Shown here one piece after another: positions 1,416 through 49,971 of a stretch of DNA of 50,064 bases. Numbering within the stretch: position 1 is the first letter of the stretch; every line of letters begins with the position of its first letter. Below the pieces are notes generated by a model that was not told the origin of the DNA, ran no database searches, and saw only the letters and a list, made by a program, of their open reading frames with translations. A program made the translations under genes and the position numbers. The DNA is from Natrialba swarupiae (GTDB lineage: Archaea > Halobacteriota > Halobacteria > Halobacteriales > Natrialbaceae), in the NCBI RefSeq assembly GCF_008245225.1, contig NZ_VTAW01000026.1, positions 1-50,064 on the forward strand, written 5' to 3'.

Positions 1416-1764
1416 TCTCCATTGTCCATCGACCGAATTCGGAGATAACGGGGGTTACGACGGTGATTCTGGCCAATCGTATAGCGGGCGTTCGTTCTAT
1501 CCGCTCGTCGTCCGAGCCGTCGATGGTCGTCGTTGCGTTCGTCGTGGATGCGGGAACTTCCTGGCCCAATCACGTGACTGATCGTCCAGTCATACGGACC
1601 GCAATAGGTCGGTACCGGTCGATCGCAGACCAGCGGGCAATCGACCGGCAATCGGTCGTCACAGACCGTCCCAGCCCGATCGCTCGAACGACTGGGGTTG
1701 AGTTACACTGGTATGAGTGTAAAGTCGCAGCAATATCTCTCTAGTCACCTAGTTAGTCATCAGC

Positions 1765-6812: not shown

Positions 6813-7952
6813 ATGGCTGAACTCACGCTCGGAAACGTAACGAAACGCTTCGACGACGTCGTCGCCGTCGACGACGTCTCGATCGAGATCGACGACGGCG
6901 AATTTCTCGTCCTCGTGGGCCCCTCGGGGTGTGGCAAGTCGACCACACTCCGGATGATCGCCGGCCTCGAGACGATCTCGGACGGACGGATCGCGATCGA
7001 CGGCGACGTCGTCAACGACGCGCCAGCCCAGCAGCGGGACATCGCGATGGTGTTCCAGAGCTACGCGCTGTACCCGCACATGACCGTCCGTGAGAACATG
7101 CGCTTCGGTCTCGAGGAGTCGACGACTCTCGAGAAAGCAGAGATGGACAGTCGCGTCGAAGACGCCGCAGAGACACTCGAGATCGACGACCTCCTCGAGC
7201 GCAAGCCGGGGGAGCTCTCGGGCGGCCAGCAACAGCGCGTCGCGCTGGGGCGAGCAATCGTTCGCGATCCAGCCGTCTTCCTGATGGACGAGCCGCTGTC
7301 GAATCTCGACGCCAAACTCCGTTCGGGTATGCGGACCGAACTCCAGCGCCTCCAGGAGGAACTCGGCGTGACGACCGTCTACGTCACCCACGACCAGACC
7401 GAGGCGATGACGATGAGCGACCGGATCGCCATCCTGGACGGTGGCGAACTCCAGCAGGTCGCTACCCCACTCGAGTGTTATCACCGACCGACGAATCGCT
7501 TCGTCGCTGGCTTCATCGGCGAGCCGTCGATGAACTTCTTCGACGTCAGCCTCGAGGACGGCCGACTGGTGGATTCCGACATCGAATTCGAGTATCCGCT
7601 TTCTTCGGTGGTTCGTGACTCCGTCGGAGAGACGACCGAGTTGGTCCTCGGAATCCGACCCGAGGATGTCGAACTCCTCGACGCCCGGGAAACGGCACAC
7701 GACTTCCCTGTCGTCGTCGACGTCGTCGAACCGATGGGTAACGAGAACAACCTCCTCGTGCGGTTCCCGGACACCGATACCGAGTCGACGTTCAACGTGA
7801 TCGTCGACGGGATGTGCCACGTGGAGGCCGGAAAGCGGTACGTGATCCGCATTCCGGAATCGGCGATACACGTCTTCGACCGCGAGACCGGCGCTGCGTT
7901 ACACAACCGCGAGATCGAGGACGAAACCGAACTGCTCGCCTCTCGCGTCTGA
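6813..7952 (+). CDS. Sugar ABC transporter ATPase (MalK/UgpC type)
   Basis: ATP-hydrolysing subunit, 379 aa from ATG 6813 (MAELTLGNVTKRF). An upstream in-frame ATG at 6750 would add 21 non-homologous residues and overlap the permease, so 6813 is preferred. Walker A GPSGCGKST, signature LSGGQQQRVALGRAIV, Walker B VFLMDEPLSNLDAKL and the H-loop VTHDQTEAMTM are intact. The C-terminal third is the TOBE/MalK regulatory domain (VLGIRPEDVEL). Last gene of the operon. A palindromic repeat starts at the base after its TGA. Confidence 0.94.
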   Translation: MAELTLGNVTKRFDDVVAVDDVSIEIDDGEFLVLVGPSGCGKSTTLRMIAGLETISDGRIAIDGDVVNDAPAQQRDIAMVFQSYALYPHMTVRENMRFGLEESTTLEKAEMDSRVEDAAETLEIDDLLERKPGELSGGQQQRVALGRAIVRDPAVFLMDEPLSNLDAKLRSGMRTELQRLQEELGVTTVYVTHDQTEAMTMSDRIAILDGGELQQVATPLECYHRPTNRFVAGFIGEPSMNFFDVSLEDGRLVDSDIEFEYPLSSVVRDSVGETTELVLGIRPEDVELLDARETAHDFPVVVDVVEPMGNENNLLVRFPDTDTESTFNVIVDGMCHVEAGKRYVIRIPESAIHVFDRETGAALHNREIEDETELLASRV

Positions 7953-8031
7953 TACGGATTGCTGTCCCTGTGTACTGGCGCATCCGGAGAACGGTCCCGT
8001 ATGCGGCGGTACTGACGGACAGCCGATCGTA
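7953..8031. repeat. Palindromic repeat family, copy A
   Basis: About 79 bp, starting at the base after the ABC ATPase stop codon. It opens TACGGATTGCTGTCCCTGTG and ends with ACTGACGGACAGCCGATCGT plus A. The two halves are imperfectly self-complementary over about 35 nt each (for example GCTGTCC with GGACAGC, and CGCAT with ATGCG), so it could fold into one long hairpin. Related copies are at 25743, 39966 and 49891. Confidence 0.7.
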
Positions 8032-8479
8032 TAACTCATCTGTTCCCCTCGACGATCCACCGAACGTCCGTTTTTCCCGGGTCGAACCGACTCGAGCGCC
8101 GCCGCCCCGTCGCTGTCTCTCGACAGACCGACAATCATCTCGAAACTAATACTCGAAGAAATAGACGATTGGCTAAAACATCATATACCTTATTGTATAA
8201 AATATACTATGTTTATACGGTCGATAATGGTCGACCGTAAGTTAGGCCACGAAACAGGCCGTAAACTGCCTTTCCGAACGGTTCAGAAACTATTTTCCTC
8301 GCCAATATTGATTTACCGGATAGATCTATCATCTGCGAGGATATCTGGAGCGTTGGTGGTTCGGTATTTTGCTACTTTGCTGATTAGTTATATATCTCTC
8401 TATAACAGCATCACAAACGAATCATTTAGAGCAATAGTAGTATTATCAGATAGGAACGTGGACCAGACGAGCGGCGTCG
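8032..8479. other. AT-rich intergenic region between convergent genes
   Basis: No supported ORF. Positions 8150-8465 are markedly AT-rich, with TATA-like runs and two perfect inverted repeats: GTATA-AAA-TATAC at 8195-8207 and CGGTCGA-N6-TCGACCG at 8218-8237. The flanking genes converge, so neither needs a promoter here. Confidence 0.5.
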
Positions 8480-10783
8480 CTACTCGTTTTCGAACGGGGT
8501 GACAGCGTCGTCGGGGCTGTCAGTCTCGAACCGGTCGAGGGCCCTCGAGAGGCGGTTTGCACGCTCGGCGAGATCCGACATCGATCCCGTTACTTCGGTG
8601 AGCGCGCTCGTCTGCTCTTCGGTCGCGGCGGCGACCGTGTCGGCCCCGGTCGCCGTCTCCTGGCTGATCGTCGCGATCTCGCTTACCTGCGAGACGACCT
8701 CGTGAGTGGAGTTCATCTGTTGTTCGGTTGCGGTGGAAATCTCCTGAACGCCGGAACTGGTCTCATCGGCGTACTCGGCGATATCTTCCAGGGCGTCGGC
8801 CGCGTGTTCGACGCGACGAGCCGTCACGTCGATCTCGTCGCTGGTCTGCTCGACCGCACTCACCGATTGCTGGGTTTGCTCTCGGATCCGCTCGAGGTGA
8901 GTTTCGACCTCCGAGGCGGCCTCTTTGGCGCTTGCCGAGAGTTCCTTGACCTCCTCGGCGACGGCCGCGAAGTCCTCGCTGTCGCCACTCGAGGGACGGA
9001 CCGCCTCGAGATTCGTGTTCAACGCCAGCATGTTCGTTCGGTCGGCGATCACCTGGATTCGGTCGATCAGGGTATCGATCTTCGCGACTTCCTGCTCCAG
9101 TTTCCCAATCTCATCGACGGCTCGCCCGGACTCGGTTTCGATCGACGCCATCCCGGCGATCGCATCCCGAGCGGCCTCGCGACCCGCGTCACCGGTCGAT
9201 GCAGTCTCCTTAGCGAGTTCTGCAACCTCGTTCGACGACTCCGTGATCTCCCTCGTCGTTCGCGAAAGCTCCGAGAGCTCCTCGGTTACGTCCTGTAACG
9301 AGTCGTTCTGTTCGACTGCGCCGTCGGAGATTCGCTGAACGGAGCCGGCCACGTTCTCCGACGCTTCGCGGACCGCCCTGCTCGAGTCGGCGACCTGTTC
9401 GCTCGCCGTTGCGACTTCCCCCGCGAAATAGTTCAGCCGCGCGATCGTCTCCTCGAGTTGCTCGAGGGTTCCGTTGAACTCCGTCGCGACCTCACGCATC
9501 GGTTCGGTGTCCGTCGCGTCGGGGTCCATGCGCACCGTGAGATCTCCCTCCGCGGCCGCCTGCATCACGTCCGCGTAGCGATTCGCAGCACGTGTAAGGT
9601 CCTCGTTCATGTGCTGGGTGTGGCGTCGCTCGCGTTCGGCTTCCTCCCGGGCACGCCGTGTCTCCTCCATCCGATCACGAAGTGAGAGGCGCATGTTGTC
9701 GAACGCCACGTACAGCTGACCGATCTCGTCGACGCGGTTCGTCTCGAGGTCGACGTCCAGGTCGCCCGCTTCCATGCGGGAAGCCTCGTGGCTGAGTCTG
9801 TTGACCGACCGGGCCGTGTTCCGTCCGAGGATCGCCCCCATCGCCGTGATCAGGAGAACAAGCCCGGCGGTCGCCGTGAAGCCGAGCCACTGGACGGTGG
9901 TGACGAACCCGTAGGCGTCGGCCGTCGGCTCGTGGACGAGAACGATCCAGTCGGTCCCCTCGACGGGGGCGGAGCCGACGACGTGTTCCTCCTCGGGGAA
10001 CCCGTAGGCCGTGAGGGTATCCGATGTTTCCGCTGACGCGACCGTCCGGGAGCCGGGTCCGGCCGAATCGGCGAGGGCGTCGGAATCGCCGCCGTACGTC
10101 TGCCCGAAGTGGCGCAACTCATCGCCGTATCCCTCGTCACCGAACACCAGACGCTTCTCGCCGTCGAGGACGAGCGTCGACGATCGATCGTCGCCGTGCG
10201 TGCTGAACTGTTCCGTGTACTGCTCGAGTTCGACGGTGTAGACGACGCCGATTGCGCCGTCGCCGGTGGTCTGAGCGTAGGTGACGGCCGGCTGTCCGTC
10301 GCCTTCCTCGAGGAGGTACGGACTCGACCGATAGACCGAGAACGGATCGATCCCCTCGATCAGGCTCTCTGAGTCGGGAATCGAGAGTTCTTCGACGGAG
10401 TCGCCGGTGAGCGTCCGATCAGTGCTGGCGATGATCTCACCGTCACCGGTGTCGACGATGTGAATCGCGTTCGCTCGATCGGGATGTTGTGTGTACTGTC
10501 GAAGCTCCGTCGTCGTGAGGCTTCGAAGCTCGGGGCTCCGGATGAGCGTCTCGACCCGTTGTTCGTTGCTCTCGGACCACGCCTGGAGACTCTTGGCTTC
10601 TTGTTCTGCGAGAGTTGCGTACTCCTCGTCGGCGTTGTCCTGGACGTGCGCCCGGATCTCCTCGGTGGCGAAGAATCCGATCATCCCGACGGAGGCACCG
10701 ATCAACAGGAGGACGATCCCGAATTTCAGCGCGTAGTTTCTCCGGATGACCGAAGGCACGTTTCGGCGAAGCCTGTCCAGCAT
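8480..10783 (-). CDS. Methyl-accepting chemotaxis transducer (Htr)
   Basis: Membrane chemoreceptor, 767 aa. Membrane segment 1 (GIVLLLIGASVGMIGFFA) lies at about 22-40, an extracellular Cache-type sensor domain at about 45-290, membrane segment 2 at about 297-318, HAMP at 320-375 and a second HAMP-like stretch near 400-450. The cytoplasmic coiled-coil signalling domain reaches to about 740 with hairpin tip RTNMLALNTNLEAVRPSSGD. It signals to CheA/CheW. The gene follows a binding lipoprotein (10837-12156) on the same strand after 53 bp, which suggests the pair senses one ligand together. The tip departs from the usual EAARA sequence (EAVRP). Confidence 0.93.
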   Translation of the reverse strand: MLDRLRRNVPSVIRRNYALKFGIVLLLIGASVGMIGFFATEEIRAHVQDNADEEYATLAEQEAKSLQAWSESNEQRVETLIRSPELRSLTTTELRQYTQHPDRANAIHIVDTGDGEIIASTDRTLTGDSVEELSIPDSESLIEGIDPFSVYRSSPYLLEEGDGQPAVTYAQTTGDGAIGVVYTVELEQYTEQFSTHGDDRSSTLVLDGEKRLVFGDEGYGDELRHFGQTYGGDSDALADSAGPGSRTVASAETSDTLTAYGFPEEEHVVGSAPVEGTDWIVLVHEPTADAYGFVTTVQWLGFTATAGLVLLITAMGAILGRNTARSVNRLSHEASRMEAGDLDVDLETNRVDEIGQLYVAFDNMRLSLRDRMEETRRAREEAERERRHTQHMNEDLTRAANRYADVMQAAAEGDLTVRMDPDATDTEPMREVATEFNGTLEQLEETIARLNYFAGEVATASEQVADSSRAVREASENVAGSVQRISDGAVEQNDSLQDVTEELSELSRTTREITESSNEVAELAKETASTGDAGREAARDAIAGMASIETESGRAVDEIGKLEQEVAKIDTLIDRIQVIADRTNMLALNTNLEAVRPSSGDSEDFAAVAEEVKELSASAKEAASEVETHLERIREQTQQSVSAVEQTSDEIDVTARRVEHAADALEDIAEYADETSSGVQEISTATEQQMNSTHEVVSQVSEIATISQETATGADTVAAATEEQTSALTEVTGSMSDLAERANRLSRALDRFETDSPDDAVTPFENE

Positions 10784-10836
10784 CGTCCGGATACAGGGAA
10801 AACACTGACATTAGCGTTTTGTATACTGTATCGTGC

Positions 10837-12156
10837 TCAGGGTCCGACGATCTCGAGGAGTCGCTCCGCCGTCGTCTCGACGTTCCACGACTCGAGAAAC
10901 GAGGCGAACGCCTCCTCGAGTTGGTTTTTCGTCGCGGGATGGATGGCGGAACCGTGGGTGATCGTCGGGAGTTGGTCGCCAGAGGCGTCGAAGTCGGCCA
11001 TCTGATCTTGTAAGAAGGGAGGGAACTCCTCGGCGGGAACGTCGGTCCGCGGCGGAATGGAGCCTTTTGGCTGGTTAAACCGACGTTGTGCGTCGACGGA
11101 TCCGCAGTACTGAAGAAACGCGCTGGTCAGCTCTGGAGAGGGATTGGGGTCCGGCATCACGAACGAGTCGAGAACCATCGTATACACCCCGTCGGTTCCG
11201 GGGAAGGCCACGTGACTCCACTCTTCGCCGTACGTGAGTTCCGCGGAACTGTAGTGGCCGGCCGCCCAGTCACCCTGGTGGGTAAAGGCCGCATCGCCAG
11301 TGATGACCTGTGCGTTCGCCTCGTCCCAGGCGATCGAACTCGCATCCGGGCTGACGTGCTCGCGATAGCGTTCGATCAGCGACAGCGACTCGGCGACGGG
11401 CTCCGCCAGTCCGTCCACGTCGCCGTCGAGAAACGACTGGAACGTCTCGAGGCCATGCTGACCGAGGAAGACGGTTTCCCAGAGTTGGACCGTCGGCCAG
11501 GCGTCCTGAGTTTGGTGGGCGAGCGGCGTGTACCCGGCGTCGGCAACCGCCTCGAACACCTCGAGTAATGTTTCGGGATCGTCGACCGATCTGGGGTCGA
11601 CGCCGACGTCCTCGACGATGTCGACGTTGTAAAAGAGGTTGTTCAGCCGGTGGATATTGACCGGCACCGCGACGTACACGCCGTTGCGTTGGGAGAGTTC
11701 TCGGACGCTATCGATGTACGCCTCGCGCATGTCATCGGACCAGATATCGTCGAGAGCCGCGAGCACGTTCGAGTCGGTGAACGGTCGAAGCGCCTCACCG
11801 GGCCAGATCTGGAACGTACTCGGCGGCTCCTCGTCGATGAGCCGTGACTGAACCGCGGCGTTGAGCGCCGATCCAGCGCCACCCGGCGCGGGATTCTCCT
11901 CGATTACGCCTTCCTCGTGCTCCTCGAGAAATCCGTCGAGGAGCGCCTCGAGTGCGTCTTCCTCGCCGCCAGCGGTCCACCAGTGGATGAGTTCGAGCCG
12001 AGAGGTGTCGTCCGGATCGTTGGCGTCGCCGTCGTCGCTCGCGTGTCCGTCCGATGTACACCCTGCGAGGACGACCGCCGCCCCGCCGATCATCCCGACC
12101 CGACGGAGCACTGTCCGCCGAGACGCGTTCGAACCGTCGGTTTCTCCCCACCCCAT
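10837..12156 (-). CDS. Orphan sugar-binding lipoprotein, probable chemosensory binding protein
   Basis: Solute-binding protein family 1, 439 aa, clearly paralogous to the importer lipoprotein at 3383-4702: HWWTAGGEE, NPAPGGAG, PPSTFQIWPGEALRP and VNIHRLNNLFYNVDIVED are shared. Tat signal SRRTVLRRVGM and lipobox VVLAGC indicate export and lipid anchoring. No permease or ATPase accompanies it; the next gene downstream is a chemotaxis transducer. This matches the arrangement known for Halobacterium BasB/BasT and CosB/CosT, where the binding protein serves taxis rather than uptake. The ligand is inferred to be a sugar. Confidence 0.92.
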   Translation of the reverse strand: MGWGETDGSNASRRTVLRRVGMIGGAAVVLAGCTSDGHASDDGDANDPDDTSRLELIHWWTAGGEEDALEALLDGFLEEHEEGVIEENPAPGGAGSALNAAVQSRLIDEEPPSTFQIWPGEALRPFTDSNVLAALDDIWSDDMREAYIDSVRELSQRNGVYVAVPVNIHRLNNLFYNVDIVEDVGVDPRSVDDPETLLEVFEAVADAGYTPLAHQTQDAWPTVQLWETVFLGQHGLETFQSFLDGDVDGLAEPVAESLSLIERYREHVSPDASSIAWDEANAQVITGDAAFTHQGDWAAGHYSSAELTYGEEWSHVAFPGTDGVYTMVLDSFVMPDPNPSPELTSAFLQYCGSVDAQRRFNQPKGSIPPRTDVPAEEFPPFLQDQMADFDASGDQLPTITHGSAIHPATKNQLEEAFASFLESWNVETTAERLLEIVGP

Positions 12157-12234: not shown

Positions 12235-13128
12235 CTAGGACCCCTTTTCGAGGAACTCCTGTTTCGGTGGTGAGCCGCCCCACGAAGAGACCGTGTTCGA
12301 CTCCTCCTCGAGGACGCGGACGCCCGTCTCGGTGTCGGGGTCCAGCGTCGCCATCTCGGCGCTCAGCTCGATCCGGTTGCCGCCGGGCCCCCAGAAGTAC
12401 GCGAAGAGGTTCGAACCCGCGTTGTGTCGACTCGGGCCGTACTCGAGCTGGTAGCCGTGTTGTGCCAGCCGGTCACAGAAGAGCTTGATGTGGTCGAACG
12501 ATTCGAACTGGAACGCGATATGGTGGAGCGTTTCCGCTGGATCGTCGGTCCTGGTGAAGCCGGCGTCGTGGTGAAACCGGCCGTGGCGCATCCAGGACTG
12601 CACCGTCGAGCCGTCTTCCTCGACGATCTCGTCCGAGACGTCGAAATCGAGGTGGTCCTCGAGGAAAGCGACGTCTTCCTCGATCGCGTCGCTCATCAGA
12701 TTGATGTGATCGAGATCCAGCGGTGCGACGCCGAGGCGATCGGCGGTTGCCTTCGTCGGGTGGAGATAACGCGTATCCGCGACGCTGACCAGTTCGACGT
12801 CGATACCGCTCGGGAGGCTGACTCGGACGCCGCTTTCCTGTCCCGGTTCGGCTCCGTCGGTTCGTCGGACGTCAGCTTCGGTATCGGCGAGGCGGCGTTC
12901 GTAGGCGTCGATCTCCGCGTCGGTGAGGCGGATTGCGAAGTGTTCGATCCCCGTCCCGCCCTCGGTCAGAGCGAGATCGTAGTTCTCGTCGAGGCCACAG
13001 CCGAGGTAGACGACGCCGTCACGTCGGTCGAGTTCGTCGAGGCCGAAGACGTCGGTATAACAGTCGACGGACTCCTCGAGGTCGGTCACTGCCATCGTTG
13101 CGTGTTCGAGTTTGCGGACTCCAGTCAT
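12235..13128 (-). CDS. Extradiol ring-cleavage dioxygenase (VOC family, catechol 2,3-dioxygenase-like)
   Basis: Type I extradiol dioxygenase, 297 aa, cleaving catecholic rings with Fe(II). It has two vicinal-oxygen-chelate domains. The N-terminal one starts KLEHATMAVTDLEESVDCYT. The catalytic C-terminal one carries the 2-His-1-Glu ligands: His in LDHINLMSD near 160, His in LHHIAFQF near 208-209 and Glu in GNRIELSAEM near 255. It follows the ring-hydroxylating dioxygenase alpha and beta genes on the same strand, which suggests one aromatic pathway. The true substrate cannot be told from sequence. No dihydrodiol dehydrogenase is present nearby. Confidence 0.88.
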   Translation of the reverse strand: MTGVRKLEHATMAVTDLEESVDCYTDVFGLDELDRRDGVVYLGCGLDENYDLALTEGGTGIEHFAIRLTDAEIDAYERRLADTEADVRRTDGAEPGQESGVRVSLPSGIDVELVSVADTRYLHPTKATADRLGVAPLDLDHINLMSDAIEEDVAFLEDHLDFDVSDEIVEEDGSTVQSWMRHGRFHHDAGFTRTDDPAETLHHIAFQFESFDHIKLFCDRLAQHGYQLEYGPSRHNAGSNLFAYFWGPGGNRIELSAEMATLDPDTETGVRVLEEESNTVSSWGGSPPKQEFLEKGS

Positions 13129-13192
13129 GGGTAATGTGTCGAGTTGTGTGTTCGGTTTTCGCGTGTCGAGTGTGTTCGTTGGTCGATACGTC

Positions 13193-13717
13193 TCAGAAGA
13201 ACACCGAGATGTTTTTCATCGGAAGGACGGTGTGATCGAGGCGAATATCTCGTTCGGCCAGTTTGAGCTCGCCGTCGACCCGGCGTAACACGTCGTGGCG
13301 TTCTGCGGAAATCGTCGTTCCGTCGGCCTCTTCTCCCTGGGCCAGGAACAACAGCAGGTTGTTCTTCACCGAGAGCTCGTCGCCGTCGACGTCTTTCACC
13401 CGGACGTTGGTCACGAAGTGGCGGGTTCGCGTCGGCGGGTCCTCCGACCACGCGAACTCCGACTGGAAGCGCTCGATGCGGGCGTCCAGCGTCGACCAAT
13501 CTTCCCGGTAGTTGAAGCCCTCGTCGCTGAACTCCGAGCGGTCCGAGCCACGGTCGCGCGTGACTCGCAGCGGCATGTCGTATCTGATGTCCTCGGTCAT
13601 CAGCTCGAGCCACTGCTCGAGTTCTTTGGTGTCGAGCAGTTCGGCTTCGTGGTTGTAAAACGATACACACTCGTAGTGGAGTTCGTGATCCGGTTTCTGC
13701 GTCGCGCGTTGGCTCAT
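13193..13717 (-). CDS. Aromatic ring-hydroxylating dioxygenase, beta (small) subunit
   Basis: Small structural subunit of a Rieske non-haem iron oxygenase, 174 aa, with an NTF2-like cone fold. Conserved features are YNHEAELLDTKELEQWLELM near the N-terminus and the run DIRYDMPLRVTRDRG. It ends with LDHTVLPMKNISVFF. The start at ATG 13717 lies 2 bp after the alpha-subunit stop, so the two are translated together to form the alpha3beta3 oxygenase. Confidence 0.9.
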   Translation of the reverse strand: MSQRATQKPDHELHYECVSFYNHEAELLDTKELEQWLELMTEDIRYDMPLRVTRDRGSDRSEFSDEGFNYREDWSTLDARIERFQSEFAWSEDPPTRTRHFVTNVRVKDVDGDELSVKNNLLLFLAQGEEADGTTISAERHDVLRRVDGELKLAERDIRLDHTVLPMKNISVFF

Positions 13718-25127: not shown

Positions 25128-25308
25128 GTTTGGTTCAGCCATCGAACGTCGGTGAGCGGTGCTTACGACCTGGTTTTCGACGTGAAACGGTCGAGACGCT
25201 CGAAGCGGCGCTCACCCCACCCCGGATCAGGCGGACCGTTGTCGTCCGATACCGATGATCGCTCGGACGGGGTTTGCGATCACCGGCCAAACGATCCAAC
25301 GATCCCTC

Positions 25309-25593
25309 TCAGTTGTTGCGACAGCAATCCTGGTCCGGCATCGTCACCCGGAGTTCGTCGTCGACCTCGTAGAAGTAGCCACGCTCGAGCAGTCTGGCGA
25401 GTGCGTACTTTGCGTCCTCGCGCTCGAGCATCAACTTGCGGCTCGCGGACAGCGAATCGACGGCGGCTTCGTACTCGATCGACCGACCGGAACCCACCTC
25501 ATCGGCTCGCTCGTCGGCGTGGCTCCGCAGATACTCGTAACACTCGAGGATCCACTCGGGAAGCGGCGGGCGTGGTCCGTCGAGGCCGGGCAT
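25309..25593 (-). CDS. Small haloarchaeal protein of unknown function
   Basis: 94 aa from ATG 25593 (MPGLDGPRPPLPEWILECYE); the longer frame begins with TTG at 25617 and is not preferred. Predicted all-helical core with a C-terminal winged-helix-like stretch (DAKYALARLLERGYFYEVDD), ending in DQDCCRNN with adjacent Cys. I recognise no family. It lies between the nosDFY promoter region and the chelatase gene and is transcribed alone. Confidence 0.65.
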   Translation of the reverse strand: MPGLDGPRPPLPEWILECYEYLRSHADERADEVGSGRSIEYEAAVDSLSASRKLMLEREDAKYALARLLERGYFYEVDDELRVTMPDQDCCRNN

Positions 25594-25742
25594 TTCGGTT
25601 CTCGGTATCGGCTTCAATATCGACTCGGTTAAGTGTATTCCCCGGTTGTCCAGTCGTCTTCGGGACGCGCTAGCGGTGGTGGCGGGCGGCCGCGAATGAT
25701 CTAATCGAACAGACGCGAGCCATTTGAGTGGCCGACCACGCG

Positions 25743-25819
25743 TACGGATTGTTGTCCCTGTGTCCCGCCGCTCCCGACGAACGGGTCCCAGGAGCGACGG
25801 TACTGACAGACAGTAACTA
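25743..25819. repeat. Palindromic repeat family, copy B
   Basis: About 77 bp. It opens TACGGATTGTTGTCCCTGTG and its right end (CGGTACTGACAGACAG) runs into the stop codon of the chlID gene (25817-25819, minus strand). Inner arms CGCTCC and GGAGCG pair where copy A has CGCAT and ATGCG, a compensatory difference. Confidence 0.7.
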
Positions 25820-28063
25820 TCGATCGCCGACGGCTCGATCCACAGCCGATCGAACCCGTTCGGCCGTCAGAGCCGACAAGCCAACGAGAGTACCGTCTGT
25901 TTCGTCGACGATCATCGGGATGAGATCGACGCGGGAGTCGTCCCCTGCGTCGACGACGACGACCGACTCTACAGATCTCGCGAGTTTGAACGCGGCCTCG
26001 CGGGTCGTTTCGGTGGGGCTGGCGTCAGCGACAGTGGCTCGGCCGTCGGTGACGAGGACGACGACAGCCGCATCCGTCTCCGTGCGTTCGACGACCGTTC
26101 GTGCTGTTTCGAGTCCGGCCGGAAGCGGCGTCCGGTCACCCGACGGTAGGTCCTTCAAGTGTCGCGCCGCGAGCCCCACGCTCTCCGTTGGCGGGAGCAA
26201 GACGTCGGCGTCCTCGCCCGCGAAGGCCACGAACGCGACCCGGTCTCGTCGCTCGTAGCTCTCATGCAGGAGTTCGAGGACGACGCCTTTCGCCGCTCGC
26301 ATCGCCGGGCGCATCGAGGCGCTGGCGTCGACGGCGAAGACGATCGTAGTCGACGTCTCGCCGGTTCGAACGGACCGTCTGAGATCCCGTTTTTCGACCT
26401 GTGATCTCCCTCGAGCGGCGGCCGAACGAATCGACGCCGCAGCGTCGATCGGATCGCCCTCCGAAGCGGGTTCAGTCCTGACGCGCGCGCCGCGGTTGTC
26501 GACAGTAGGGACCGCACTCACCCGATCACCGCCGGTCGCCGGTGAGTCGTGACTGTCCGCGGTCGGCGTCTCGAGGTCGGGTGCCCTCGCCTCGCCGACG
26601 CCGGCGACCTCGCCCCGTCGCTGGCCCGGCACGAGTGGTCGGCCGTCCTCGCCGCCGGCGGATTCGTCGTCATCGTCGCTGTCGCCGTTACCGACATTGT
26701 CGGATTCGGACCCACGCGAGTCGTCTCCGCCGAACGTCCCGGCACCGCTGGCTTCCTGCGGTTCGGGCTCGTCGACGGGTTCATCCGCGGTTTCGGATCG
26801 GCGGTCGGAACCGTCCGAGTCACGGTCGGAGTGATCGGGGGAGGTCCCTGGGCGACCGTCCGAATCGCTCGAGTCGCGACCGTCGGAATCGGCGTCGCCG
26901 GCGGTATCCTCGCCACTATCTCGACTGGTTCCGTCGCCCGTCTCGTCGGAGTCGTCTCCCATCTCGTCGTCCTCGTCGCCATCACCCGTCTCAGCTTCGG
27001 TCTCCTGTCTTTCGGACCCGTTGGACGCGCTCTCGTCGAACCGATCCTCGAGCAGGTCGTCGAGGTCGGGTTCGTCCTCGAACGGCGTCGCTCGCAGACG
27101 ATGCGGGAGTGCGTAGCTCGCGGCCTCGTGGACATCGGGTTCGATCACCGTCGTCCGGCCCTCGAGTGTGGCGAGCGTCATCGCCGTCCTGGCGATCGCG
27201 ACGTCGCCACGGTGGCCGTCGACGCCGGCCTCGAGACAGAGGTCGGCGATCTCTCGTTTGAACTCGGTCGGGAGGTCGACCCGGGGGAGGCGCTCGCGGG
27301 CCTCGAGAAGGCCGGTCCGGAGTCGGTCGACGTCGTCGGCGTACTCGGCTCGGAGGTCGGCGTCGCCGGACCCGTCCTCGAGTGCGCGGTCGATCACCTC
27401 GACGCGGTCGTCGATCTCGCGACAGCCCGTCACGCTGGCCTGGAGGGCGAACCGATCGCGCAGTTGCGGGCGAAGGTCGCCCTCCTCGGGGTTCATCGTA
27501 CCGACCAGGGTAAACTCCGCAGGGTGAGAAACGCTGACCCCGTCGCGTTCGACGGTGTTGACGCCGCTCGCTGCCGCATCGAGAAGGACGTCCACGAGGT
27601 GGTCCTCGAGCAGGTTGACTTCGTCGACGTAGAGAATACCGCGGTTGGCTCGAGCGAGAAGACCCGGATCGAACTCGGCTTCGCCCGCCAGGGCGTCCTT
27701 GACCGAGAGCGTGCCGACGACCCGATCCCTGGTCGCCCCGAGCGGGAGGGTAACGAGCGGAACGGGACGGGTTTCGACCGGCAGGTCGTCCGGATCGCGG
27801 TTCCGACACGATGCACACTGCGAGGCGCGGTCGTCCGGATCGCAGCCGTACGGACAGTCCGCGACGGCTCGTTGTTGGGGGAGCAGATCGACCAGCCCGC
27901 GGACGGCGGTCGACTTCGCGGTCCCCTTCTCACCGACGATCAGCGCGCCGTCGAGGGCGTCGTTGGCCGCGACGGACAGCAGAACGCGTTTTAATTCGTC
28001 CTGCTCGACGATGGCGGGAAAGGGGAGTGACGACAGTTTTTTGCCGCCACGCTCTGCAACCAT
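25817..28063 (-). CDS. chlID: ChlI-ChlD-type AAA+/VWA chelatase subunit for cobalt insertion
   Basis: Fusion of the two small subunits of a class I metal chelatase, 748 aa from ATG 28063 (MVAERGGKKLSSLPF). The AAA+ domain (about 15-320) has Walker A GEKGTAKST at 44-52, a four-Cys insert (DCPYGC...CASC) near 69-88 and Walker B GILYVDEVNLL. A long acidic Asp/Ser linker follows (about 345-480). The VWA domain (about 570-748) has MIDAS DASASM and TDG. It is divergent from cobN with only 34 bp between starts, so the product most likely powers CobN-mediated Co(II) insertion. Confidence 0.92.
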   Translation of the reverse strand: MVAERGGKKLSSLPFPAIVEQDELKRVLLSVAANDALDGALIVGEKGTAKSTAVRGLVDLLPQQRAVADCPYGCDPDDRASQCASCRNRDPDDLPVETRPVPLVTLPLGATRDRVVGTLSVKDALAGEAEFDPGLLARANRGILYVDEVNLLEDHLVDVLLDAAASGVNTVERDGVSVSHPAEFTLVGTMNPEEGDLRPQLRDRFALQASVTGCREIDDRVEVIDRALEDGSGDADLRAEYADDVDRLRTGLLEARERLPRVDLPTEFKREIADLCLEAGVDGHRGDVAIARTAMTLATLEGRTTVIEPDVHEAASYALPHRLRATPFEDEPDLDDLLEDRFDESASNGSERQETEAETGDGDEDDEMGDDSDETGDGTSRDSGEDTAGDADSDGRDSSDSDGRPGTSPDHSDRDSDGSDRRSETADEPVDEPEPQEASGAGTFGGDDSRGSESDNVGNGDSDDDDESAGGEDGRPLVPGQRRGEVAGVGEARAPDLETPTADSHDSPATGGDRVSAVPTVDNRGARVRTEPASEGDPIDAAASIRSAAARGRSQVEKRDLRRSVRTGETSTTIVFAVDASASMRPAMRAAKGVVLELLHESYERRDRVAFVAFAGEDADVLLPPTESVGLAARHLKDLPSGDRTPLPAGLETARTVVERTETDAAVVVLVTDGRATVADASPTETTREAAFKLARSVESVVVVDAGDDSRVDLIPMIVDETDGTLVGLSALTAERVRSAVDRAVGDR

Positions 28064-28097
28064 ACTTGAGCTAATACAATAGAGGTTTAAAAATTCG
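28064..28097. promoter_or_regulatory. 34-bp divergent chlID/cobN promoter
   Basis: Only 34 bp separate the two ATGs. On the minus strand TTTTTAAACC (about 28085-28094) is a TATA element about 22-31 bp from ATG 28063. On the plus strand CTAATACAAT (28071-28080) is the only candidate, 18-27 bp from ATG 28098. Both transcripts would be leaderless and the promoters overlap. Confidence 0.5.
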
Positions 28098-31000
28098 ATG
28101 ACACGCATCGGGATCTACACCGCGACGGAGAACGAACTCGGCTCGATCGGGCAGGCCGCCGAGCGCCTGCACGAGGTCGAACTGGTCGTCCGCTCGGAGA
28201 GCGATCTGGACGGCGAACCCGAGATCGAGGCGTTCGTCGAGGAACTGCGCGGCGCCGACGCGGCAGTCTTCTGGCTGCACGGCGCCGAAGAGAGCATGCC
28301 CGGCTACGAGTACGCGACCGGGGCACTAAGCGAGGTGAACGTCCCACTGATCGTCAAATCGACGGGCGACGCGTTCGCCCTCGAGGACACGACGGTCGCC
28401 GACGACCACCGTGATCGGGTATACGAGTACCTCGAGCGCGGCGGGACGGTAAACGTCGAGAACTGCTGTCGATTCCTCGCGGCGGAGTACACGGGCCAGA
28501 ACCACGCGTACGACGACCCCACACGCCTGCCGACGGAGGACGTCTACCACCCCGACTATCCGGGGATCGGGTACGAGGAACTGCTCGAGACACACGACCC
28601 CGGGAAGCCGACGGTCGCAATCTGGTTCTACGAATCCCACTGGACCCACGAGAACGTCCGGTATGTCGACGCACAGGTCCGTGCACTCGAGGACCAGGGC
28701 GCAAACGCCCTGCCGATCTTCTGCAACCCCGCCACGGACACAGAGGAGCAAGAGGACGCCGAGTGGGTGACCGACAACTGGCTGGTCGGCGACGATGGCG
28801 AACCGATCGTCGACGCCGTCCTCTCTTCGTTCATGTTCTCGCTCTCGATGGACGAACGCGGTCGCTCGGCCAGCGGGGAGGGCGACTCCGCGGAGGATGT
28901 CTTCCTCGATCGTCTCGGGGTGCCTGTGCTCCAGACGATCACGACGATGCGATCCCGGTCGCGCTACGAGGCCAGCGATACGGGCGTGATGGGGTTCGAA
29001 CTCGCCCTTTCCGTGGCGCTACCGGAGTTCGATGGCAACGTCATCACACACCCCGTTTCCGGTAAAGAGCGAACGGACGACGAGGCCGGCATGGGCAGCG
29101 CGCCGAAACACCACTTTCCGATCGCAGACCGGATCGACCACGCCACCCGGCTTGCGGTCAACTGGGCGACCCTCCGGCACACGCCGAACGAGGAGAAGAA
29201 CGTGGCCGTCGTCCTCCACAACTACCCGCCGAGCGACGACGGGATCGGGACGGCGTTCGGGCTCGACTCCCCTGAGTCGACCGTGAACCTGCTCTCCGAA
29301 CTCGAGGCGCGTGGGTACGATCTCGGCGGAGAAATGCCGGAAGACGGACAGACCCTCGTCGAGAAACTTACCTCGCAACTCACCCTCGAGGACCGGTGGG
29401 TCGCTCCCGAGGACGTCCGAGATCTCTCGGTCGACGTCGTTTCGACGGCGCAATACGAGGACTGGTTTTCGGCGGCCGACGAACGGTTCCAGGAGAATAT
29501 CGTCGGGGAGTGGGGCGAGGTTCCGGATCGGCCGTTCGCGATCCCCGGAACCCGATTCGGCAACGTCCTCGTCACCGTCCAGCCCCCGCGCGGGTTCGGG
29601 ATGGACCCCTCGAAAGTCTACCACGACTCCGACCTCCAGCCGCCCCACGACTACTACGCGTTCTACGGCTGGCTCCGGAATACGTTCGAGGCCGACGCCG
29701 TCGTCCACCTGGGTACCCACGGCAGCCTCGAGTGGCTCCCCGGCAAGACGGTCGGTCTCAACGGGGAAAGCGCACCCGACCAACTGGTCGACGACATCCC
29801 GAACGTCTACCCCTACATCGTGAACAACCCCGGCGAAGGGACACAGGCCAAACGCCGGTCGTACGCCGCCATCGTCGATTACCTGACGCCCGTGATGCGG
29901 TCGGCGGGAACGTACGACGAACTCGCGGAACTCGAGGAGCTCGCGAATCAGTACCGGGAAGCCGGGATGGAAGACGCCCGCGCGGACGACGGCGAGGGAC
30001 TCGAGACATTGATTCGGGAAACAGTCGACGAACTGGATCTCGCCGTCGAACTCGGCATTTCGGGCACAATCGACGAGAAGGCGGACGTTCGCGGCCCCGA
30101 CGAGGCCGGCACCACGCTCGCCGAGGGAGAGGTCGACGGTGACGTGATCGGTGCGGACCTCGACATCGACGCTCTCGTCGAACGCATCCACGGGTACCTC
30201 ACGGACGTCAAGACGACTCAGATTCGCCTCGGACTGCACACCATGTCAGAGCCGCCCGAGGGCGAGCGACTGGTCGAGTACCTCGTCGCCCTAACGCGCC
30301 TCGAGAACCCCGGCGCGCCGAGTCTGCGCGAGAGCGTCGCCGGCACGTTGGGCGTCGACTACGAGACGATGCTGAACGCACCCGGCGAGTACGACGAGGC
30401 GCTCGGGATGACCTACGCCCAGGCCGCCGATGTGGTCCACGAGACGAGCCTCGAGTTGGTCGAAACGCTCGCGGAACACGACTTCGACGTCCCCGAATCG
30501 GAACGCGAAGCCGGACCTGACGTTGAGGTCAACATGAACCTGCTCGTGGTCGACCTCGAGACGATCGGCAACGGGCGAGCCAAATCGGGTGCCCACGACG
30601 ACCTGCGCGACGTCCTCGCGTACATCTGCGAAGAGGCGAAACCGCGCGTCCAGGGGGCCGAGGACGAGGTTCCGCGCACCGCGGACGCCCTCTCGGGAGA
30701 GTACGTGCCGCCCGGAGGATCGGGTGCCCCCACGCGAGGCGGCGTCGACCTGCTACCCACGGCGCGGAACTTCTACACGCTGGACCCGCGGAAGGTGCCG
30801 GCCAAGCCAGCGTGGCAAGTCGGGAAGGAGGTGGCGGAGGGGGTGCTCGAGCGCCACTACAGTGAAAACGGCGACTATCCGGAGGAGATCGGCGTCGTGG
30901 CCTGGGGGACCCCAACCGTGCGCACCCGCGGCGAGACCATCGCGCAGGTGCTCGCGATGATGGGCGTCGAACCGCAGTGGACTGATGCAGGCCGGATCGA

Positions 31001-38891: not shown

Positions 38892-39965
38892 ATGAGCTTC
38901 GTCATCGGTCGCGGTTCCGACGCTGAGACGACACAGACGGGCCACCTCGGCCGGTATCGTGCGCTCGACGGCAGCGAAGGTGCGAAGCTGTTTGTCGACC
39001 TCGACGGGCCACACGCCATGTTGATCGTCGGAAAACGCGGCTACGGAAAGTCGTTCACGCTCGGCGTCGTCGCCGAGGAACTGGCGCGTTCGCCGGGCGT
39101 CGCACCCGTCATCGTCGACCCGATGGGCGTCTTCGCGACGCTCGCCGAACCCGCTGACGGCGAGTCGGTTCCGATCGAGGTCGTCGATCGCCCGGCGGTC
39201 GCAGCGAGCGTGCTCGATCCCCGCTCGTGGTGTTCCCTGCTCGGACTCTCACCGGAAAGCGGTGCCGGCGGACTCGTCTGGCAAGCCGCCCAGGAGGCCG
39301 ACACCCTCGAGGCGATGTCCCGACGGGTCGAAGCGATCGACGCGCCGACGACCGACACGCGTGCGGCGACCAATCACCTGTCGCTCGCCGAGTCGTGGGA
39401 GGTGTTCGATCCCGAGGGCCTCGACGCGGCCGACCTCGCCAGCACGGCGGCCACGGTCGTCGACGTCTCCGGGTTGGACGCAGCGCCGATGAACGCCGTC
39501 TGTCGCGGTATCGGAGAGGCGCTCTACCGGGCCCGCATCGACGAGACGATCGATCGTCTCCCGTGGCTGATGATCGACGAGGCACACACCTTCTTCGACG
39601 GCGTCGCCGAAGCGGCGCTCCACACGATCCTCACCCGCGGCCGTGCGCCGGGAGTCAGCCTCGTCTTCGCGACCCAGCGCCCGAGCGCCGTCACGGACAC
39701 CGCCATCTCCCAGTCCGACGTGTTGATCTCCCATCGACTGACCGCCGAAGCCGACCTCGAGGCGCTCGAGGCGGCCCAGCCGACGTACATGAACGAGTCA
39801 CTCGACGAACGGCTCCCGACCGAACCGGGACAGGTGGTCGTCATCGACGACGCGACGGAGACGATTCACGCGGCACAGATACGGTTCCGGGACACTCCCC
39901 ACGGCGGCGGGAGTCCGAGCGCGCGTGAGATCGCTGGTCTCGAGGAGACGTCGACCGACGACTGA
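38892..39965 (+). CDS. HerA/VirB4-like ATPase (DUF87-type)
   Basis: 357 aa. P-loop ATPase of the HerA-FtsK superfamily. Walker A is GKRGYGKSFT near 48-57, Walker B WLMIDEAHTF near 224-233, and a downstream sensor run reads VSLVFATQRPSAV. HerA relatives act as DNA translocases in end resection or as motors of mobile elements. The protein lacks the N-terminal HAS barrel and is short compared with classical HerA (about 500 aa). No NurA nuclease gene is adjacent. It stands between the cbiF and cbiG blocks. A palindromic repeat begins directly after its stop. Confidence 0.85.
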   Translation: MSFVIGRGSDAETTQTGHLGRYRALDGSEGAKLFVDLDGPHAMLIVGKRGYGKSFTLGVVAEELARSPGVAPVIVDPMGVFATLAEPADGESVPIEVVDRPAVAASVLDPRSWCSLLGLSPESGAGGLVWQAAQEADTLEAMSRRVEAIDAPTTDTRAATNHLSLAESWEVFDPEGLDAADLASTAATVVDVSGLDAAPMNAVCRGIGEALYRARIDETIDRLPWLMIDEAHTFFDGVAEAALHTILTRGRAPGVSLVFATQRPSAVTDTAISQSDVLISHRLTAEADLEALEAAQPTYMNESLDERLPTEPGQVVVIDDATETIHAAQIRFRDTPHGGGSPSAREIAGLEETSTDD

Positions 39966-40038
39966 GACGGATTGCTGAAACGGATCCTCGGCGAAACCCG
40001 ACGCTGTGTTCGGCGAGACCGCTCGACAGTGATGGGTC
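39966..40038. repeat. Palindromic repeat family, copy C
   Basis: Starts at the base after the HerA-like stop codon (TGA then GACGGATTGCTG). The inner arms CTCGGCGAA and TTCGGCGAG pair over 8 of 9 positions, and the outer arms GACGGATTGCTG and CAGTGATGGGTC pair partly. Confidence 0.65.
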
Positions 40039-40377
40039 TACAGTAGTCGTTAATACGATTTATCGAGAAGCCGTGACCGTTCCCGGTTGAAACGAAAGCG
40101 GTCGTCACCGACGGACGCCGTCCTCGGCGACGGGATCGACGTCGACTCGAGCGAGCGAAGTCGCCGCCGACGGATCGACGAGACGGAACAAACGCTCGTC
40201 ACCTGCCCCTCCGCCACGTTCTCCCATCCTGCGTAGCGTCCACTGAGCGTGACTCGAGTGACGAAGTCACCAACGCGTCGAGAGTATCCCGCTCGAGATG
40301 GGGGCCTCGCGTCGACAGGGCCGTCTCCACAGAAACTAAACCTATATTGCACATGAGAAACGTAGCTTGTATTAGTG
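40039..40377. other. Intergenic stretch before the cbiG operon
   Basis: About 340 bp. A short plus-strand frame (about 40051-40227) ends ETEQTLVTCPSATFSHPA but has no ATG start and no recognisable family. The cbiG promoter lies at its right end. Nothing else is supported. Confidence 0.4.
40341..40349 (+). promoter_or_regulatory. TATA box of the cbiG operon
   Basis: CCTATATTG lies 29-37 bp before ATG 40378 and about 95 bp before the cbiG ATG. Transcription should therefore begin at or just before the upstream mini-ORF. Confidence 0.6.
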
Positions 40378-49856: not shown

Positions 49857-49890
49857 TATTCTCAGCACTGTAGCCGGGCGGATTCTCTCA

Positions 49891-49965
49891 GACGGATTGC
49901 TGTAACAATACACCGCGGAACTCGCGACCTGTCTGCGGGTTCGACGGTAACGACTTACTGAGAGT
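49891..49965. repeat. Palindromic repeat family, copy D
   Basis: About 75 bp opening GACGGATTGCTGTAACAATA. The inner arms ACCGCGGAACTCGC and GCGGGTTCGACGGT pair with few mismatches, in the same position as the differing arms of copies A-C. Unlike copies A-C it is not directly against a stop codon. Confidence 0.6.
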
Positions 49966-49971
49966 CAAGGA

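Follow-up and report, generated by a model that had tools for sequence, protein, structure and literature searches.

A hairpin repeat of about 80 bp in Natrialbaceae, flanked by duplicated TGA or TCA triplets, that behaves like a miniature transposable element

SMR-A and SMR-B of Haloquadratum walsbyi are multi-copy repeats of 80-110 bp with terminal inverted repeats, without a transposase and with no known partner transposon; they insert into palindromic sequence, mostly the ends of PATE and IS605 elements, and are reported to make no target duplication (PMC3119063). PATE elements and IS605-type ends themselves have neither terminal inverted repeats nor target duplication, and their palindromes lie near the ends, not at them (PMC3119063). 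In bacteria, the miniature inverted-repeat transposable elements (MITEs) RUP, Correia/NEMIS and ERIC are shorter than 200 bp, have inverted repeats, form hairpins, are largely intergenic and duplicate their target, typically with TA termini or targets, and YPAL/RU-2 of Yersinia is a 168-bp element with internal inverted repeats, no TA ends and a duplication of 3-26 bp (PMC2229807). REP and REPIN sequences, which are associated with the HUH enzyme RAYT, consist of 20-40 bp units with GTAG or CGTC tags and show no 3-bp duplication (PMC3733652, PMC2817692, PMC3116915). The element analysed here shares features with each of these groups, and neither its family nor its head sequence was found described in the open-access literature, outside which most subscription journals lie.

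Copies in the window and in other genomes

The window is a stretch of 50,064 nucleotides of Natrialba swarupiae (contig NZ_VTAW01000026.1), whose genome is referred to as the home genome. The element has a core of 79-80 bp that starts with TACGG, ends with CCGTA and is self-complementary along nearly its whole length. The initial annotation had described four copies (A to D) sharing the head ACGGATTGYTG, and exact matches were found at precisely those four places; when one mismatch was allowed the window contained five, as compared to 0.94 expected from shuffles. A covariance model (R1) was then available from 20 aligned and folded home-genome copies; since copy A is among them, its own score is partly built in. 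With this model copies A, B and D are firm members of the family and copy C, which looks decayed, fits weakly, while two divergent copies on the minus strand had been missed (Table 1).

Table 1. Coordinates of the element copies and of neighbouring repeats (window positions unless a genome or locus is named)
Feature	Location	Strand	Basis or remark
Copy A, 79-bp core TACGG...CGTA	7953..8031	+	Covariance model and RNA fold; match 7949-8034, 89 bits, E 1e-20 (copy A is one of the 20 seed sequences)
Left triplet TGA of copy A	7950..7952	+	Stop codon of upstream ABC transporter ATPase gene 6813-7952
Copy B	25743..25819	+	Covariance match 25739-25822, 51.8 bits, E 5e-11
Copy C, head and decayed remainder	39966..40038	+	Covariance match 39962-40041, 18.4 bits, E 0.02
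Copy D, right end decayed	49891..49968	+	Covariance match 49887-49971, 36.9 bits, E 3e-7
Further divergent copy, flanking triplets included	1590..1674	-	35 bits, E 1e-6
Further strongly decayed copy	25227..25312	-	25.5 bits, E 3e-4
Second element, ~97 bp	G016 C1, L298:~10500-10900 (2.73 Mb region), L303:~12950-13220 (2.81 Mb); L329:1428, L361:4315
Repeat TACTGTCGGACAG...GCGGCCGTC...GACGGCCGC	Home genome C25:78358 flank; L210, L250, L168, L281, L304, L305

The contacts with stop codons that had been noticed for three of these copies are real. Copies A and C begin directly after a TGA, which for copy C (39963-39965) ends the gene of a HerA-like ATPase (38892-39965), and the right end of copy B overlaps the minus-strand stop codon (25817-25819) of a chlID-like gene (25817-28108) with Mg-chelatase/VWA domains. 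The right triplet of copy A (8032-8034) has decayed to TAA, and the left triplet of copy D is TCA (49888-49890). On the minus strand, the copy at 1590-1674 has TGA as right and TGG as left triplet, and the copy at 25227-25312 has TGA on both sides: the left one (25311-25309) serves as stop codon for a minus-strand gene (25309-25593) predicted to encode 94 aa, and the right one lies at 25229-25227. When the four annotated copies were folded singly and each compared to its own shuffles, only copy A folded far better (z -4.5, vs. -1.6 for B, -1.4 for D and -0.5 for C). Inside the chlID-like gene and antisense to it, ARAGORN predicted a 96-base tRNA-Val (CAC) at 26786-26881 (+), which is probably a false positive.

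Genome-wide searches for the head and with a covariance model, which had been proposed as checks, showed that the repeats form a large family. The head occurs 116 times in the 4.20 Mb home genome and the reversed pattern never; R1 gave at least 149 matches at E <= 0.01, corresponding to at least 147 distinct places once opposite-strand duplicates were removed. This salt-loving archaeon thus holds about 150 or more copies. Among the 61 genomes searched, related haloarchaea included, 33 matched R1 at E <= 1e-4; most of them were Natrialbaceae, where the counts per genome reached at least 73, and outside the family the matches were few and weak. G016, a relative belonging to another genus, gave at least 150 R1 matches, and 54 full copies were recovered from the 800 kb examined. 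Copies were obtained from genera including Natrarchaeobius, Salinadaptatus, Natronococcus, Natronorubrum, Natronolimnohabitans, Natrinema, Natrialba, Halopiger and Saliphagus, and the family is mainly one of Natrialbaceae. A plasmid collection contained full-length copies on haloarchaeal plasmids; a search of a phage collection returned no credible homologues.

Other small repeats were met along the way. One is a second element, roughly 97 bp long and with TAGGGATTATCGTAG as its ends; TGA or TCA flanks it as well, and one of its copies is nested in the main element at GAC-TGA-CAG. The two may share a mobilising enzyme. At L138:1819-1905 (C95) the home genome also contains a repeat of about 85 bp that is present in many copies in the genus and seems to have no sequence relationship with the main element. 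The repeat TACTGTCGGACAG...GCGGCCGTC...GACGGCCGC, common to the home genome, G003 and G016, is a target for the main element.

Ends, target site and hairpin

When TACGG-type end pairs lying 40-3000 bp apart were collected, 175 of the 204 pairs with matching triplets enclosed a core of 79 (39 pairs) or 80 bp (136 pairs), places in overlapping stretches being possibly counted twice; most of the other spans were two separate or nested copies combined. In the 134 home copies with flanks, the left and right triplets were TGA/TGA in 53 cases, TCA/TCA in 32, TGA/TCA in 4 and TCA/TGA in none. Altogether, equal triplets were found in 89 of the 134, as compared to 44 expected and a maximum of 60 in 2000 shuffles. 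The same four categories counted 21, 17, 1 and 0 in G016 and 39, 39, 1 and 0 in the copies from named Natrialbaceae. In triplets that were part of the palindrome, TGA on one side would face TCA on the other; since direct repeats are seen instead, the flanking triplets are a target-site duplication of 3 bp, in nearly all cases TGA or TCA, that lies outside the hairpin. The initial annotation, correct as to the stop-codon contacts, had missed that the triplets are direct repeats.

The target around the triplet, read from 74 well-preserved copies, is a loose palindrome, GAC-TSA-GTC, and this preference is weaker, yet present, in home copies away from stop codons. The bias to gene 3' ends predicted by the initial annotation is supported: a stop codon is one of the end triplets in 62 of the 134 home copies (46%) and in 34 of 75 well-preserved ones. 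About half of the copies, however, lie off any stop codon and carry the same duplication; the stop codon is the 3-bp target and has no functional role within the element. From all non-coding TGA and TCA sites, 8% of copies would be expected at stops; when sites were weighted by the flank preference of non-stop copies the expectation rose to 31%, and the residual excess (46% vs. 31%, binomial p 2e-4) is to be read cautiously, the weighting being derived from 46 sequences. The target sequence accounts for the greater part of the stop-codon bias, though perhaps not for its entirety. The copies off stop codons are mostly intergenic, and 15 of the 134 lie between divergently oriented genes.

Since reading frames are stopped by the element itself, it was removed from the sequence before gene interruption was assessed, and genes were called by a simple codon-usage script instead of a published gene finder. 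Only 4 of 134 home copies fell inside genes, one of them being window copy B, which merely touches a stop codon; the corresponding figures in two further sets were 3 of 54 and 3 of 75 (well-preserved copies), with respect to 230 of 358 random TGA/TCA sites, so that about 3-6% of copies interrupt genes. This scarcity may reflect selection or insertion preference. TGA stops often fit the target and the duplication restores the triplet, which leaves the coding sequence unchanged after insertion. In G016 (C1:1134685-1134857, 917553-917722, 277093-277261 and 1442483-1442652) adjacent copies overlap by about one triplet, as expected if a regenerated TGA or TCA is hit again.

Covariation of the arms had been proposed from the four window copies, which are too few to judge it; in 130 home copies it is real. 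With arm pairs counted by their distance from both ends, the inner positions 26, 27, 29-31 and 35 pair through differing base pairs, at z values of about 7-9 relative to shuffles that ignore kinship among copies; at position 29, for example, C-G occurs 57 times and A-T 49 times. Between G016 copies differing at no more than six sites, 11 paired changes were found and all 11 went from pair to pair, as compared to 2.2 expected. At the same time, certain mismatches are conserved, since the left and right ends hold different consensus bases: A.A at position 6 and, in the main subfamily, C.C, G.A, A.G and T.T at positions 16-19. The covariation may stem from selection on a hairpin that movement requires, from switches of template from one arm to the other, or from a role of the RNA.

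Mobility and origin

Empty sites show that the element is mobile. In G016, two copies of an IS630-type transposase gene (identified as such by its sequence and not by a family search) carry the element at the same position, whereas two others are empty, with 97-99% identity over the 140 nt that span the junction and a single TCA; because they share their position, the two occupied copies could derive from a single insertion that was then copied along with the IS. Two home copies, 22:63770 and 49:210009, correspond to empty orthologous stop codons with a single TGA in congeners (L259 and L251, respectively). Further, more divergent empty sites were also seen; one syntenic block (L138) was too rearranged to show any. 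In G016, moreover, nearly identical cores are numerous at loci unrelated to one another, and in most of them the two triplets match.

The element is very probably a high-copy, non-autonomous miniature transposable element that makes a 3-bp duplication within GAC-TSA-GTC. Insertion duplicates the TGA or TCA triplet, a stop codon that is hit being regenerated. Both ends would be recognised by an enzyme acting in trans, most likely a transposase of the DDE type whose cut is staggered by 3 nt. Insertions into coding sequence would be purged by selection, and, as a by-product, many mRNAs would carry the hairpin in their 3' untranslated region. Three observations count against this reading: an autonomous element with these ends was not found, the covariation between close copies exceeds simple transposon decay, and the share at stop codons lies above that expected from the target.

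The partner was sought in the home genome and/or in relatives with young copies, several genomes being searched whole. Among the part of the PF01609 transposase matches whose loci were examined, none had the element ends, and PF13586 and PF13359 gave no match above cut-off. Long elements of 0.3-3.5 kb with matching triplets and ends were also scanned for: 800 kb of G016 contained no element of 0.5-2.6 kb in which TNA triplets that match, similar ends and a transposase were combined, and about 2.3 Mb overall, with relaxed ends, contained no transposase-bearing long element. The candidates that appeared resolved either into two separate copies or into nested insertions surrounding ordinary genes. 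No autonomous partner was therefore found among several whole genomes (three families) and about 2.3 Mb. A single 108-bp element at L329:3631-3739 (G015 C41:155629-155742) has the same 17-bp ends, TACGG.CTGCTGTGA, a TCA duplication and an unrelated interior; followed as a lead to an autonomous transposon, it reached none. A divergent relative of it occurs in G006, a genome without 80-bp elements at the threshold used.

The strong hairpin, the inner-stem covariation and the contact of 62 of 134 copies with a stop codon would also suit an RNA device acting in cis at the 3' ends of genes, namely a terminator or processing hairpin that is selected site by site and adjoins the stop by need. We regard this as very unlikely, considering that about half of the copies are off any stop, that some lie between divergently oriented genes, that the end triplets are duplicated and that congener orthologues mostly have no hairpin. 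Moreover, just 1.6% of the copies located at stops have TTTT inside them, and the 60 or 120 bases that follow a copy contain T-runs about as often as the sequence behind control genes does. The element is thus not an intrinsic terminator, and the termination device of the initial annotation is not supported; nor is its dedicated small RNA, no Rfam covariance model having matched in the window. The third option of the annotation, a REP-like element that targets gene ends, is supported. Taken literally, as an element of the REP/REPIN type whose folded hairpin is read by the single-strand HUH transposase that moves it (RAYT or the IS200/IS605 TnpA), it is nevertheless extremely improbable. The near-complete hairpin with conserved internal mismatches, the high copy number, the intergenic bias and the tandem clusters all fit, but HUH transposition of the IS200/IS605 type makes no target duplication, whereas 3 bp are duplicated here; furthermore, the target is a double-strand palindrome, and 80 bp with terminal inverted repeats contrast with units of 20-40 bp.

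Within the mobile-element reading, the paired arm changes might come from template switching (quasi-palindrome correction), the hairpin having no function. Their occurrence between copies with six differences or fewer speaks for this possibility, which we consider less likely than not, given that the mismatches at positions 6 and 16-19 stay conserved and uncorrected, suggesting constraint on both ends. The same mismatches in otherwise pairing arms suggest a reading in which the hairpin is recognised: an enzyme of an undescribed type might read the folded hairpin and yet make its cut, staggered by 3 nt, in double-stranded DNA where a palindrome resembles a stop codon. This would be a safe-site strategy, the duplication regenerating stop codons, and some copies may have been recruited as 3' UTR hairpins. 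We consider this combination rather improbable.

As a miniature transposable element, the repeat would place hundreds of hairpins per genome and so shape 3' untranslated regions and repeat content across many Natrialbaceae, and its 3-bp TGA/TCA duplication gives a mobile element a simple means of landing harmlessly on stop codons. Its partner enzyme, not found so far, poses a concrete, testable question that may bear on how the similarly orphan small mobile repeats of other haloarchaea move.

Comparison with described elements

The element is short and non-coding, with terminal inverted repeats and a target-site duplication. It thus behaves like a MITE, an assignment set by size, inverted repeats and duplication, with no partner transposon found in the parts scanned. 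With RUP, Correia/NEMIS and ERIC it shares the short length, the inverted repeats, the long hairpin, the target duplication and the largely intergenic location; it differs in duplicating 3 bp, TGA or TCA, and no transposase sharing its ends was found as a partner. YPAL/RU-2 is likewise palindromic and non-coding, duplicates its target, inserts in or beside dyad-symmetric sequences and has known empty sites, but it is 168 bp long with a 3-26 bp duplication, as compared to 79-80 bp and 3 bp here. The abundance of extragenic palindromes and their clustered arrangement recall REP/REPIN sequences, from which the element is set apart by its 80 bp, its TACGG ends, the absence of a GTAG or CGTC tag and the 3-bp duplication. 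PATE elements are also haloarchaeal, transposase-free and palindromic; unlike them, the element has terminal inverted repeats and a target duplication. The SMRs of Haloquadratum walsbyi are the closest described elements, being haloarchaeal, of similar size, with inverted repeats and a palindromic target, and orphans of their mover. Unlike the SMRs as described (PMC3119063), the element duplicates 3 bp, TSA, and, as the stop-codon and intergenic counts show, it resides between ordinary genes or at their ends, and apparently not mainly at the ends of PATE and IS605 elements.
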